NCBI RefSeq assembly: GCF_001999325.1
Contig: NZ_MVAR01000023.1
Location: forward strand, 62,001-126,000
Length of the DNA: 64,000 bases
Source of the DNA: Thioalkalivibrio versutus
GTDB taxonomy: Bacteria > Pseudomonadota > Gammaproteobacteria > Ectothiorhodospirales > Ectothiorhodospiraceae
Reading direction: 5' to 3'
The stretch's first letter is position 1; every line of letters starts with the position of its first letter. The notes below the pieces were generated by a model, which was not told the DNA's origin, did not search any database, and saw nothing but the letters and a program-made list of their open reading frames with translations. A program made the position numbers and the translations under genes. Of the stretch, positions 36,321-42,686 are shown piece by piece.

Positions 36321-38537
36321 TTACGCCAGCGAGACCGGGTCGATGTCGATGGCGATGCGGGTGCCGCGCGGGAGGTCGTCGGTCTGCCAGGCGTGGCGGG
36401 CGCGGGTCAGGGCCCGATGGAGTGGGCCGCGCTGGGTGGACTGCAGCAGGATCTGTTCGCGGAAGCGGCGATTGACGCGGTGGCGCGGTGCGGGGGCCGG
36501 GCCGAGCACGCGCAGGCCTTCGGCGGCGGCGTTGCGCAGGTGGGTGGCGACGCGCTCGGCGTGGCGGCGGGTGGTCTCGGCATCGCCCGCCTCGACGCGG
36601 ACCAGGGCCAGGTGGCCGTGGGGCGGCATCTCGGCGGCAGCGCGCTCCTCCAGCAGGGGCGCGACCATCGCCGGGTAGTCCGCGGCGTTCAGGCCGCGGA
36701 TCAGGGGGTGGTCCGGATGACCGGTCTGCAGCAGGACGCGGCCGCCGCCGGAACCGCGTCCGGCGCGCCCGGCGGCCTGCACGATCAGCTGCAGGGTGTT
36801 TTCGGTCGCGCGCAGGTCGACGCTGAACAGGCCCTGGTCGACGTCAATCACGCCGACCAGTCCGACCTGCGGGAAGTCGTGGCCCTTGGCCAGCATCTGG
36901 GTCCCGACGACGATGGCGGCATCCAGCTGGCGAATGCGGTCCAGTGCCTCCTCGAGTGCCCCCTTGTGGCGGATGCTGTCGCGGTCCAGGCGGATCAGCG
37001 GAGTGGTCGGGTAGTGGCGGGCCAGGGCCTGTTCCAGGCGCTGGGTGCCGAGACCGCGCTGGGCCAGGGCCTCGCCGCATTGCGGGCAGCGCTGGGGGCG
37101 CGGTTCCTGGTGACCGCAGAGGTGGCAGACGGCACGCGGGTTGTGCGTGTGGATGGTCAGGCGCGCATCGCAGTCCGGGCATTCGGCGACCCAGCCGCAG
37201 GCGTCGCAGGCCAGCACGCGGGCGAAGCCGCGCCGGTTCAACAGCAGGAAGCACTGGTGGCCGGCGGCGAGGGTCTGTTGCATGGCATCCAGAAGCGGGG
37301 CGGTGAGGCCCTCGTCCGGGGTGTGCACACGCGTGTCGATGGCCTCGACGGCGGGCGGTTGAGAGCCGTCCGGGCGCGTCGCCAGTCGGGCATGGGCGTA
37401 TCGGCCAGTGGTCGCCGCATGCAGGGTCTCCAGGGTCGGCGTGGCCGAGCCCAGGACCACCGCGGCCTGTTCCAGCTGGCCGCGCTTGATGGCCAGGTCG
37501 CGGGCGTTGTAGCGAAAGCCGTCCTGCTGCTTGAAGGCACTGTCGTGCTCCTCGTCAACGATGATCAGGCCGAGATCGGGCAGGGGCGTGAACAGCGCCG
37601 AACGGGTGCCGACGACGATGCGGCGCTGCCCCTGACGGGCCGACTCCCAGGCGCGCAGGCGCTCGCCCTCGGACAGCCCGGAGTGGAGGAGGGCGACCTG
37701 CCCGGGGAAGCGCTGCTGGATGCGCGCGCTCAGCTGTGGCGTCAGGGCGATCTCGGGGATCAGGAACAGGACCTGGCGCCCGCGTGCCAGCACGCGTTCG
37801 GCCATTTGCAGGTAGACCTCGGTCTTGCCGCTGCCGGTAACACCCTCCAGCAGGAGGGGTACGCCGGTATCCGGGGTCAGGGCGTCGACGGCGGCGCGTT
37901 GTTCGGCGGTCAGGGTGTGGTCGCTGGTGTTCGGGGGCGGTGGCTGTTTCGGGTCGGGCGTGATCGCCTCCAGCCAGCCGCGTTCCGCAAACGCGCGCAG
38001 TTCGCGCGGGGCGAGTTGCAGCCCGGTGGCGGCGGCCAGGGTGGCGCGATCCAGGGCCGGTGAGGCATGCGGTGTGGAATTCGGGTGGGCCAGCGCGCGG
38101 AGGACGGCCTGCTGGCGTCGCCCGCGGGCGTCACCGTCGGCCAGCGCCTGGCTGCCCGCGGGTGTCATCCGCCACAGGGTCTCCGGGGTCAGGGCGGGGA
38201 GCGGGTCGCCATGGCGCAGGGCCGGGGGAAGTGCCCCCAGCAGGGCTTCGCCCAGGGGGTGGTGGTAGTACCGGGCTCCGAACTGCAGCAGCGCCAGCAG
38301 GCGGGGCTCCAGGATCGGTTCTGCCTCGGGTGCTTCCTGGATCGCACGCAGGCGGCCGGGTGCAACCTCGCTGGTGGATGCCAGCTCGACCACGACCCCG
38401 ATGGTCGACCCGCGCCCGAAGGGCACGCGCACCCGCTGGCCGGGTGCAAGCGTCAGGTCCTCGGGGATGCGGTAGTCGAACAGCCGGTCCAGAGGGCGAT
38501 CCAGCGCGATGCAGGCGATTCGGGGCGCGGCAGGCAT
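36321..38537 (-). CDS. priA: Primosomal replication protein N' (helicase PriA)
   Basis: Superfamily 2 helicase that reloads the replicative helicase at collapsed forks. The 738-residue protein has the N-terminal DNA-binding domain (VPFGRGSTIGVVV), Walker A GVTGSGKTEVY, DEEH in the motif DEEHDSAFKQQD, helicase motif RAGRGS near the C-terminus, and zinc-binding Cys clusters CDACGWVAECPDCDARL and CHLCGHQEPRPQRCPQCG. The ATG at 38537 is preferred to an in-frame GTG 6 bases earlier. Perfect DnaA boxes lie 63-85 bases upstream. Confidence 0.96.
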   Translation of the reverse strand: MPAAPRIACIALDRPLDRLFDYRIPEDLTLAPGQRVRVPFGRGSTIGVVVELASTSEVAPGRLRAIQEAPEAEPILEPRLLALLQFGARYYHHPLGEALLGALPPALRHGDPLPALTPETLWRMTPAGSQALADGDARGRRQQAVLRALAHPNSTPHASPALDRATLAAATGLQLAPRELRAFAERGWLEAITPDPKQPPPPNTSDHTLTAEQRAAVDALTPDTGVPLLLEGVTGSGKTEVYLQMAERVLARGRQVLFLIPEIALTPQLSARIQQRFPGQVALLHSGLSEGERLRAWESARQGQRRIVVGTRSALFTPLPDLGLIIVDEEHDSAFKQQDGFRYNARDLAIKRGQLEQAAVVLGSATPTLETLHAATTGRYAHARLATRPDGSQPPAVEAIDTRVHTPDEGLTAPLLDAMQQTLAAGHQCFLLLNRRGFARVLACDACGWVAECPDCDARLTIHTHNPRAVCHLCGHQEPRPQRCPQCGEALAQRGLGTQRLEQALARHYPTTPLIRLDRDSIRHKGALEEALDRIRQLDAAIVVGTQMLAKGHDFPQVGLVGVIDVDQGLFSVDLRATENTLQLIVQAAGRAGRGSGGGRVLLQTGHPDHPLIRGLNAADYPAMVAPLLEERAAAEMPPHGHLALVRVEAGDAETTRRHAERVATHLRNAAAEGLRVLGPAPAPRHRVNRRFREQILLQSTQRGPLHRALTRARHAWQTDDLPRGTRIAIDIDPVSLA

Positions 38538-38860
38538 GCGCACAGTCTACTGTGTCGGACCCCGGGGAGGGGGAGAGGCCGCCGCACTGCGGGAGGGGGT
38601 TATCCACAAAAGCTGTGGATAACTCTGTGGGTGAATCGGTATGAACATCCCTAAATGCTTGTTACTGCTAAGGGCTACCTGGATTGGGCAAAAATCGACC
38701 ATATCCATTTAATAGAGTTAAAACAGCGAGTTATGATCGTTATGTGAAACCGAGTGCGCGCTGTGTGTGCTAACCGGGGTTTGACCCCGGCCCTTGTGGG
38801 TAGTTTGTACAGGAAATGTACAGATTTCGGGTTTCAATCCTGGCCCGGTGGGTGAGCAAC
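38538..38860. other. AT-rich spacer between priA and the pntB terminator
   Basis: A 323-base gap without a gene. After a DnaA-box cluster (38600-38634), about 120 bases from 38640 to 38760 are markedly AT-rich for this genome (for example CCATTTAATAGAGTTAAAAC). Then come a hairpin CCGGGGT-TTG-ACCCCGG (38774-38790) and the 17-base dyad TGTACA-N5-TGTACA (38806-38822). This is the most structured noncoding stretch in the window. Confidence 0.65.
38600..38634. promoter_or_regulatory. Cluster of DnaA boxes upstream of priA
   Basis: Two perfect DnaA boxes in opposite orientation, TTATCCACA (38600-38608) and TGTGGATAA (38614-38622), five bases apart, with a third weaker box TGTGGGTGA at 38626-38634 (two mismatches) and possibly a fourth, TGTGGGTAG, at 38795-38803. 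They sit 63-97 bases upstream of the priA start codon and next to an AT-rich tract. They could regulate priA, titrate DnaA, or belong to an origin. Confidence 0.7.
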
Positions 38861-38943: not shown

Positions 38944-40332
38944 CTAGCCGAGGGCCTTGACCGATGCCACCAGTTCGGCGGCCACCTTCTGGCCGTCGCC
39001 GTACAACATCTGGTTGTTGTCGGCATAGAACAGGTGGTTCTCGATGCCCGAGAAACCGGAGCCCTTGCCGCGCTTCACACAGATGACGTTGTGCGCCTGG
39101 TCCGCGTTGAGGATCGGCATGCCGTAGATCGGCGAGTCCGGATTGGTCCGGGCCACCGGGTTCACGACGTCGTTCGCGCCGATGACCATGGCGACATCCG
39201 CGGTCTTGAACTCCTCGTTGATCTCGTCGAGGTCGAAGATGATGTCGTAGGGCACGCCGGCCTCGGCCAGCAGCACGTTCATGTGCCCGGGCATGCGGCC
39301 CGCGACCGGGTGGATCGCGAACTTCACGTCCACGCCGCGCTTCTGCAGCAGCTGGGTGAATTCCCAGATCTTGTGCTGTGCCTGCGCCACGGCCATGCCG
39401 TAGCCCGGCACGATGATCACCTTCTCGGCAAAGGCCATCATGATCCCGGCGTCGTTGGCCTGGATCTCCTTCATGGTGCCCTCGATCGCTTCCTCGGCAC
39501 CCCCGCTGCTGCCACCGAACTGGCTAAACAGGATGTTCTTGATCGGGCGGTTCATCGCCTTGGCCATCAGCTGCGTGAGCAGCGTACCGGCCGCGCCGAC
39601 GACGATACCGGCGATCATCAGGGCCGGGTTGTCGAGCACGATGCCCTTGAGGCCGACTGCCAGGCCGGTGAGGGCGTTGTACAGCGAGATGACCACCGGC
39701 ATGTCGGCGCCGCCGATCGGCAGGGTCATCAGGATGCCGAAGGCGAGCGACAGGATGAAGAACAACAGCAGTGTGGCCGAGCCGATCTCGCCGCCGCCGG
39801 TCGCCAGCATGAAGCCGAGGATCACGGTGATAGCAAAGATGGCGATGTTCACCACCTGCTGGCCCGGGAAGTGGAAGGTCTTCTTCATCAGGCCCTGCAG
39901 CTTGGCGTAGGCCACCAGCGAACCGGAGAAGGCGACCGAACCGATCAGCGAGCCGGTGGTGGCGATCGCCAGGCCGGTGTTGCTGACGGTCTCCGGGGTG
40001 GCCTGCAGCAGGTAGATCGCGCCGATGCCGGCCGCGGCGCCGCCGCCCATGCCGTTGTACAGCGCGATCATCTGCGGCATGTCGGTCATGGCGACCTTCT
40101 TGCCGCTCCACCAGGCGAGACCGCCACCGATGACGATACCCAGGACGATCAGGGTGTAGTTCACGCCCCCGGAGACCTCCGGATGCACGAAGGTCACGAG
40201 CGTGGCGAGCACCATCCCCACGCCGGCCCACATGATGCCCGGCCGCGCGGTGGTCGGCGAAGACATCTGCTTGAGGCCGACGATGAACAGGACCGCCGCC
40301 GCAAAGTAGGCGAGGTTGATAATCAGACTCAT
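38944..40332 (-). CDS. pntB: NAD(P) transhydrogenase subunit beta
   Basis: Membrane and NADP-binding subunit of the proton-translocating transhydrogenase, which makes NADPH from NADH using the proton gradient. The 462-residue protein has about nine membrane segments, then domain III from about 285 with VIIVPGYGMAVAQAQH, HPVAGRMPGHMNVLLAEA, VIGANDVVNPVAR and NADQAHNVICVKR. Its start overlaps the previous gene by 4 bases. Last gene of the operon; a double-hairpin terminator follows. Confidence 0.96.
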   Translation of the reverse strand: MSLIINLAYFAAAVLFIVGLKQMSSPTTARPGIMWAGVGMVLATLVTFVHPEVSGGVNYTLIVLGIVIGGGLAWWSGKKVAMTDMPQMIALYNGMGGGAAAGIGAIYLLQATPETVSNTGLAIATTGSLIGSVAFSGSLVAYAKLQGLMKKTFHFPGQQVVNIAIFAITVILGFMLATGGGEIGSATLLLFFILSLAFGILMTLPIGGADMPVVISLYNALTGLAVGLKGIVLDNPALMIAGIVVGAAGTLLTQLMAKAMNRPIKNILFSQFGGSSGGAEEAIEGTMKEIQANDAGIMMAFAEKVIIVPGYGMAVAQAQHKIWEFTQLLQKRGVDVKFAIHPVAGRMPGHMNVLLAEAGVPYDIIFDLDEINEEFKTADVAMVIGANDVVNPVARTNPDSPIYGMPILNADQAHNVICVKRGKGSGFSGIENHLFYADNNQMLYGDGQKVAAELVASVKALG

Positions 40333-40640: not shown

Positions 40641-41770
40641 GATTGAGCTCCCTTCAGGGCCTCGCGGGTGGCCTCGTGCACGATCTCGCCATCGCGGGTC
40701 AGCACGCTCTTGGCGATGACCTCGTCATCCCAGTCGGGCTGGAATTCGCCGCCTTCTGCGATCATCGGCGTGAGGAAATTCAGCAGGTTCTTGGCATACA
40801 TCTCGGAGGCATGCAGCGGGACCTGCGAGGGCACGTTCAACGGGGCATGGATGATCACGCCCTTGTGGTCGTGGGTCTCGCCGGGCTTGCTCAGCTCGCA
40901 GTTGCCGCCACCTTCGGCCGCCAGGTCGATGATGACCGCACCCGGCTTCATGCCCTCGACCATGATCTTGGGGATCAGCTTGGGTGCATCGCGTCCCGGG
41001 ATCGCGGCGGTAGTGATCAGCACGTCGGCCTTGGCGATGTACTCGCCCAGGGCATCCTGCTGCTGCTTTTTCTCTTCCGCGGTCAGTTCGCGGGCGTAGC
41101 CGCCCTCGCCCTCGGCGGAGACGCCGAGATCGAGGAACTTCGCGCCCAGCGACTCGACCTGCTCCTTGGTGGCGGAGCGCACGTCATAGGCCTCGACCAT
41201 CGCGCCCAGGCGCTTGGCCGTGGCAATCGCCTGCAGCCCGGCCACGCCGGCGCCGATCACGATGACCTTGGCCGGGCGGATGGTGCCGGCCGCGGTGGTC
41301 AGCATCGGGAAGAAGCGGCAGGACAGGTCGGAGCCCATGATCGCGCCCTTGTAGCCGACCACGGCCGCCTGCGAGGACAGCACGTCCATGCTCTGGGCGC
41401 GCGAGATGCGCGGGATCAGCTCCATCGCGAAGCTCAGGATCTTGCGCTCCTGCATCGCCTTGACCACATCCGGGTTGCGGTGAGCGTGGAACAGGCTGAC
41501 CACGGTCGAGCCTTCCGGCAGCTGGTTGATCTCCTCGACTGTCGGCGGTGCCACGCGGACCATCAGGTCCGACTGGCCGTAGGCGGTCTCGGTGTCGACC
41601 ACGGAGGCCTTCTCGTAGGCCGCATCCGGAAAATGGGCCTCGGAACCGGCACCCTTTTCCAGCTGCACCGTGATGCCCATATCGCTGAACTTGGCCGCTA
41701 CCGACGGATCCAGGGCCACGCGGCGCTCGCCACTGGCGGATTCCCTGGGAACGGATAATTTGATTGCCAT
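40637..41770 (-). CDS. pntAA: NAD(P) transhydrogenase subunit alpha, NAD-binding part
   Basis: Soluble NAD(H)-binding domain I of the transhydrogenase, 377 residues. It begins MAIKLSVPRESASGERRVALDP, shared with alanine dehydrogenase, and has the NAD motif VIGAGVAGLQAIATAKRLGA and the mobile loop region EYIAKADVLITTAAIPGRDAPKLI. The ATG at 41770 is the conserved start; upstream in-frame codons belong to the leader. First gene of the pntAA-pntAB-pntB operon. Confidence 0.95.
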   Translation of the reverse strand: MAIKLSVPRESASGERRVALDPSVAAKFSDMGITVQLEKGAGSEAHFPDAAYEKASVVDTETAYGQSDLMVRVAPPTVEEINQLPEGSTVVSLFHAHRNPDVVKAMQERKILSFAMELIPRISRAQSMDVLSSQAAVVGYKGAIMGSDLSCRFFPMLTTAAGTIRPAKVIVIGAGVAGLQAIATAKRLGAMVEAYDVRSATKEQVESLGAKFLDLGVSAEGEGGYARELTAEEKKQQQDALGEYIAKADVLITTAAIPGRDAPKLIPKIMVEGMKPGAVIIDLAAEGGGNCELSKPGETHDHKGVIIHAPLNVPSQVPLHASEMYAKNLLNFLTPMIAEGGEFQPDWDDEVIAKSVLTRDGEIVHEATREALKGAQS

Positions 41771-41846
41771 GCGCTCTCTCCCCGGGCCAAGCGTTCCCGT
41801 ATTCCCTATGGGACGATCAGCCGCGCTCGCGGGTGGTGAAATCGGA

Positions 41847-41919
41847 TGCGGCACGCGTGATTCGGGCGTGCCGCACAAAAAACGACCCGCGAGTGTAGCG
41901 GATCCGGCCTCGTGCTTAA
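41847..41919 (-). promoter_or_regulatory. Candidate promoter and leader hairpin of the pnt operon
   Basis: On the minus strand TTAAGC (41919-41914) and TACACT (41897-41892) with 16 bases between give a plausible promoter and a leader of about 115 bases. Within the leader lies a perfect 9-base stem, TGCGGCACG / CGTGCCGCA (41847-41875, 11-base loop), preceded by a run of six T. Function of the hairpin is unknown. Confidence 0.4.
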
Positions 41920-42041
41920 ACCGTGTCCACCCTCGTTGCAGGGCCCGTCAGGTTGGGCGAGCTTACGATACCGCGGGTCATGGCGTTGTAATTGCTTTGT
42001 TCCTGAAGGCTGTTTATTGTTTTTCGGGTATCGAAGGCGGC

Positions 42042-42686
42042 ATGGATTTGTTCACCCGTACGCCGCGTGAGCAAATCCGTGTTTCCTTGAGACGGGACGG
42101 GGTCATGTTGCCGAATGAGCATCAGGTCCTGCGCACGGATGCCGCGGGCATGCCGCTAGAGTGGATCGGCCTGGAGCAGGCCGTGCGCCTCTATTACACC
42201 GAGCAGGTGGCCTACACCTGTGGCAGCCCGCTATATCGCATGCGCGGCGGCATCAACGCGCGCACCGGGTTGCAGTCACGGGTCGAGGTCAACTCGATCA
42301 TCGCCACTCACGGCACCCGCAAGTCCCGCTTCAACGACTACATCCCCCCGCTCAATAACACCACCCTGTTCCGCCGCGATGCCCACCTTTGCCTCTACTG
42401 CGGTCACGCGTTCCCCGAACGCGATTTGTCCCGCGACCACGTGACCCCGATCAGCCAGGACGGCGAAGACACTTGGACCAACGTGGTCACCGCCTGCAAG
42501 CGCTGCAACAACCACAAGGCGGGGTTCACGCCGGAAGAGGCCGGGATGCAGTTGCTCGCCATCCCGTTTACGCCCACCCACGCGGAATACATCTTCCTCA
42601 AGGGCAAGCGCGTGCTGGCCGACCAGATGGAGTTCCTGCAGGCGCACTTCCCGCGTACCAGCCCGTTGCGGGGTCGTAGCGTCTGA
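42042..42686 (+). CDS. HNH endonuclease family protein
   Basis: A 214-residue protein with an HNH domain at about 110-165: C117-L-Y-C120, D132-H133-V-T-P, C152-K-R-C155 and N156-N157-H158-K. The Cys pairs bind structural zinc and H133 with the later Asn/His form the metal nuclease site. This stand-alone class is widespread in gammaproteobacteria and of unknown cellular role. The ATG at 42042 (MDLFTRTPREQIRVSL) begins the conserved part; earlier codons in the same frame lie opposite the pnt leader. Divergent from pntAA. Confidence 0.87.
   Translation: MDLFTRTPREQIRVSLRRDGVMLPNEHQVLRTDAAGMPLEWIGLEQAVRLYYTEQVAYTCGSPLYRMRGGINARTGLQSRVEVNSIIATHGTRKSRFNDYIPPLNNTTLFRRDAHLCLYCGHAFPERDLSRDHVTPISQDGEDTWTNVVTACKRCNNHKAGFTPEEAGMQLLAIPFTPTHAEYIFLKGKRVLADQMEFLQAHFPRTSPLRGRSV

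Follow-up and report, generated by a model that had tools for sequence, protein, structure and literature searches.

A probable DARS-type DnaA-reactivating sequence upstream of priA in Thioalkalivibrio versutus and its relatives

DnaA-reactivating sequences (DARS) are, to our knowledge, known in functional detail only from Escherichia coli, in which DARS1 lies at bioD-uvrB and DARS2 in the mutH region, and the published minimal DARS1 comprises 101 bp devoid of IHF and Fis sites. The spacing of the DnaA boxes is the same at DARS1 and DARS2, with box I opposite to boxes II and III, and at the datA locus the essential DnaA boxes all face one way (PMC5742627). The head-to-head pair formed by boxes I and II is essential in DARS (PMC10380432), and DARS2 depends on both IHF and Fis, being organized in the order core-IHF-Fis, with the essential Fis sites beyond the IHF site (PMC4245941). 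Conservation of DARS-like sequences across many proteobacteria is noted in a review citing Fujimitsu 2009, and therefore the kind of element described here was already known. The detailed shared architecture and the linkage to priA appear to be new: no report of a priA-linked DARS was found in the literature searched, a body that did not include the original DARS paper (Fujimitsu 2009), and some of the sites may have been mentioned earlier.

The locus considered here lies in a window of 64,000 nucleotides, by which the whole stretch of Thioalkalivibrio versutus DNA analysed is meant. A first-pass annotation of this window had described two exact DnaA boxes 5 bases apart, accompanied by one or two weaker boxes and by AT-rich DNA in a GC-rich chromosome, upstream of the primosome helicase gene and flanked by genes running in the same direction. 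This description held throughout, and the features are given below, together with the match of R1, a sequence model built on 49 elements that did not include the E. coli loci.

36321..38543, minus strand: priA, replication-restart helicase, downstream of the element; likely ATG start at 38537
38600..38608, minus strand: DnaA box I, reading TGTGGATAA on the priA strand, in opposite orientation to boxes II and III
38614..38622, minus strand: DnaA box II, TTATCCACA on the priA strand, exact
38626..38634, minus strand: DnaA box III, TCACCCACA, 2 mismatches, 3 bp from box II
38686..38700, minus strand: predicted Fis-consensus site, GGTCGATTTTTGCCC matching GNNYRNNNNNYRNNC, at -78 from box II; position conserved in 49/84 elements
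38721..38733, plus strand: predicted IHF-like site, AAACAGCGAGTTA, which departs from WATCARNNNNTTR by 1 mismatch, -111 relative to box II; position conserved in 66/84 elements
38795..38803, minus strand: distal DnaA box, weak (CTACCCACA with 2 mismatches), about -181 relative to box II, read from the sequence
38600..38735, minus strand: whole element as matched by R1, 79.7 bits, E 4.4e-23 (shortened calibration, as for all R1 E-values); this copy is one of the 49 building sequences
38944..40332, minus strand: pntB, the gene upstream of the element

On the plus strand of the window, TTATCCACA occupies 38600-38608 and its reverse complement 38614-38622, the two boxes standing head-to-head with 5 bases between them. 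Read towards priA, the core is TCACCCACA-GAG-TTATCCACA-GCTTT-TGTGGATAA, that is, box III, 3 bp, box II, 5 bp and an inverted box I, which reproduces the E. coli DARS spacing of 3 and 5 bp; the best matches to the same 9-3-9-5-9 template in the E. coli loci were TAATACACATGGTTATCCACAGGAATAGTGGATAA at DARS1 and TTCTTCACAACTCTATCCACAGAAAAGGTGAATAA at DARS2. The boxes adjoin the largest AT-rich patch of the window, and the stretch 38585-38809 holds its lowest-GC 100-base windows, with a minimum of 38% against an average of 66%. Perfect DnaA boxes are scarce in this organism, and just 7 were found in the whole 2.83 Mb genome (58 contigs), including the two at the priA site. The closest named relatives of the priA of the window belong to Thioalkalivibrio strains (95% and 89% identity). 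Adjoining the weak distal box, a CTGTACA-type repeat was seen at 38805-38821, as well as in the same place in loci L003, L004 and L005, and possibly represents low-affinity DnaA boxes or another operator. Beside the pnt genes, a frame at 41670-42686 presented an HNH-endonuclease-like C-terminal half.

Of 79 priA loci from gamma- and betaproteobacteria, 39 had a core of DARS layout on the upstream side of the gene, oriented like priA in every case (39/39), and no core of this layout was present in the other 968 kb of flanking DNA. Moreover, 152 of the 369 genomes examined from the class contained the exact pair TTATCCACA-N5-TGTGGATAA and none contained the reversed control pattern, which sets the paired boxes far from chance; a chance cluster was ruled out by the rarity of perfect boxes and by conservation. 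The distance between the core and the priA start varied from about 50 to over 200 bp, and the genes upstream of the element fell into many families while priA stayed, although these gene clusters consisted in part of antisense frames. In three loci (L015, L021 and L041), a single priA was preceded by two complete cores arranged in tandem and separated by about 270-345 bp. Five loci from Methylophaga and a related MAG (L044, L054, L055, L059 and L076) carried a different cluster upstream of priA, without the DARS layout, in which two minus-strand boxes 16 bp apart were followed by plus-strand boxes.

The AT-rich tract is the regulatory half of the element, as judged from the predicted sites that recur in it. 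In 84 non-redundant elements, selected by the core alone and numbered from box II, the IHF consensus (up to 1 mismatch, one strand) was found at -108 to -113 in 66 against a background of 2.0, with 23 perfect matches, and the Fis consensus started at -76 to -80 in 49 against a background of 2.2. A distal DnaA box with up to 1 mismatch was located at -176 to -193 in 39 of them, and a small number of elements had both the IHF and the Fis motif 11 bp closer, which corresponds to one helical turn. A larger set of 128 elements, biased because part of it was chosen with the model, yielded 114 IHF, 83 Fis and 68 distal-box occurrences compared with 3.1, 2.5 and 0.9 in block shuffles. Elements away from priA kept the architecture, with IHF in 38/41 and Fis in 26/41. 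Concerning the proteins, the host genome encodes DnaA, IHF-alpha and IHF-beta, the latter two above curated cut-offs, in addition to an HU, and a Fis homologue adjoining dusB whose score fell just short of the curated Fis cut-off. The Fis motif is degenerate and could be bound by another protein.

A second full copy of the element is present in the host genome between metG and apbC (R1, 66.2 bits), as is a degenerate third copy upstream of a gene starting like rpmE (G000:C7:137318-137376; L238:1358-1568), in which TTATGCACA lies distally at -189, boxes III and II are intact and box I has been lost. Since rpmE is the divergent neighbour of priA in E. coli, this degenerate copy hints at an ancestral rpmE-element-priA order. 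R1 matched 106 of 116 relatives. In a phylum-wide draw, a tally of the table of matches gave 161 of the 164 members of the class and 136 of the 233 genomes outside it; beyond the class, weak matches may reflect the core alone. A sample of 800 kb from two relatives yielded just the two priA sites with R1. Among the loci fetched for the strongest matches, priA was the most frequent neighbour (25/32 loci of relatives and 9/29 loci of the phylum-wide draw), and uvrB, which adjoins DARS1 in E. coli, was seen twice. In the same draw, a family outside the class (f209) presented up to 8 matches per genome and another (f225) one weak match in nearly every member, and the copy number of the element may differ by lineage. 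On selected E. coli loci, R1 scored 35.5 bits at DARS1, 23.6 at DARS2, 17.9 at datA and 14.4 at oriC, the datA and oriC matches both stopping before box I, and no match was obtained at the dnaA promoter, priA or metG; thus, no copy of the element was found by R1 upstream of E. coli priA or metG. The alignments to DARS1 and DARS2 extended over 124-127 bp, a sequence relationship that reaches beyond the core boxes, although the core contributes much of the score.

The priA-side element is probably a DnaA-reactivating sequence of the DARS type, its activity being deduced from sequence comparison. The observations on which this reading is based are the order, spacing and orientation of the boxes, the positions of the IHF and Fis consensus sequences, the presence of IHF, Fis and DnaA genes, the second copy, and a place away from oriC; against it stand the single mismatch of the IHF site and the two mismatches of the distal box in the window. 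Binding of IHF, Fis and DnaA, release of ADP and timing to the cell cycle are what we infer for this element. ADP-DnaA would bind head-to-head on box II and the oppositely oriented box I, aided by DnaA on the weaker box III, while IHF would bind and bend the AT-rich tract at -111 and Fis would bind at -78, both shaping the DnaA complex. By analogy with E. coli, the paired DnaA molecules would then release ADP, stimulated by box III, IHF and Fis, and the freed apo-DnaA would take up ATP and could subsequently fire oriC at dnaA.

The first-pass annotation had offered four options for the cluster, namely a promoter, a titration site, a reactivation site and an origin, of which reactivation is now strongly favoured by the box arrangement, the motif positions and a model that recovered both E. 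coli DARS1 and DARS2, origin is rejected, and a role in priA expression may persist on the side. A DnaA-controlled priA promoter, in which upstream DnaA, IHF and Fis would time priA transcription to the replication cycle, is an unlikely principal function. The constant adjacency and orientation relative to priA despite changing upstream genes would fit a role in priA expression, and its place beside priA may let DnaA influence this gene too. However, a simple priA operator is not favoured because the internal spacings are fixed to 1-2 bp while the distance to priA varies widely, and because elements beside metG, uvrB and other genes share the same architecture, which does not depend on priA. 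Still less probable is a datA-like site that would soak up DnaA or promote ATP hydrolysis after initiation. DnaA boxes and an IHF-like site, in a genome with so few perfect boxes, speak for such a function, but boxes I and II face each other here, unlike the uniformly directed essential boxes of datA (PMC5742627), a site with two or three strong boxes is small for titration, and the R1 match to E. coli datA is partial and weak; on box orientation, this reading was not favoured.

That the site might be a replication origin, or the relic of one, as the perfect boxes beside an AT-rich stretch had suggested, can be practically dismissed. The dnaA gene lies on a different contig from the priA element, and in the complete congener G029 (2,744,800 bp) the sampled GC skew is near zero around dnaA (position 1), stays positive as far as about 1.2 Mb and is negative thereafter; its sign changes at dnaA and near 1.3 Mb, and priA, 253 kb from dnaA, falls inside the positive-skew arm. 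A second complete relative, G034, gave a similar picture with weaker skew. Within the window, no GC-skew minimum was found at the site, and its boxes stand head-to-head rather than head-to-tail. The origin was accordingly ruled out by GC skew in the complete congener, where the minimum falls at dnaA, and the element is a chromosomal site distinct from oriC. The earlier annotation had named two findings that would count against its proposals together, a separate skew minimum at dnaA and no conservation of the boxes upstream of priA; the former was observed, and the boxes turned out to be conserved there. In the host genome, a perfect DnaA box and a patch of 34% GC lie just after dnaA and before a dnaN-like frame (G000:C19:83806-83975, L113), a region that is probably oriC, and perfect DnaA boxes also follow dnaA in G029 and G034.

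Returning to the DARS-type reading, a broader proposal may be put forward tentatively, with rather less than even confidence. The arrangement of core, Fis (-78), IHF (-110) and distal box (-190) would be the ancestral and commonest DARS of gammaproteobacteria, beta lineages included. It would reside most often beside priA, usually with a further copy on the opposite chromosome arm, DARS1 and DARS2 of E. coli would have arisen from it by rearrangement, and the linkage to priA would tie DnaA reactivation to replication restart. In six complete genomes, too few for the point to be pressed, two strong R1 sites lay on opposite sides of dnaA, and in one of them (G033) neither site adjoins priA. As almost every gammaproteobacterium examined has the architecture, with the IHF and Fis motifs at fixed positions, the generality of DnaA recharging at DNA sites in the cell cycle becomes testable, as does the question of why one such site stays beside the replication-restart gene priA.

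Compared with the described systems, the element shares with E. coli datA the presence of DnaA boxes and an IHF site, but datA has its boxes in one direction and lacks an inverted box I. With DARS1 it shares the three-box core, III-3-II-5-I with box I inverted, and DARS1 gave the best R1 score of the E. coli loci tested; nevertheless, DARS1 adjoins uvrB instead of priA and has no IHF consensus at the position conserved in the elements. In the six complete genomes, the placement of the two strong sites on opposite sides of dnaA resembles that of DARS1 and DARS2 in E. coli. DARS2, in turn, has the same core spacing, an IHF consensus at -95/-99, which is on the same strand and one helical turn away from -110, and an additional DnaA box V at about -197, and the predicted IHF site of the priA-side element (consensus with 1 mismatch) likewise falls on the box III side of the core. 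On the other hand, box V points the other way from the distal box of the priA-side element, the gene neighbourhood is the mutH region rather than pntB-priA, and the essential Fis sites of DARS2 lie beyond IHF, whereas the Fis consensus here lies between the core and IHF. A copy of DARS2 was ruled out by this core-Fis-IHF order, and the element is therefore filed as a DARS variant and not as DARS2.
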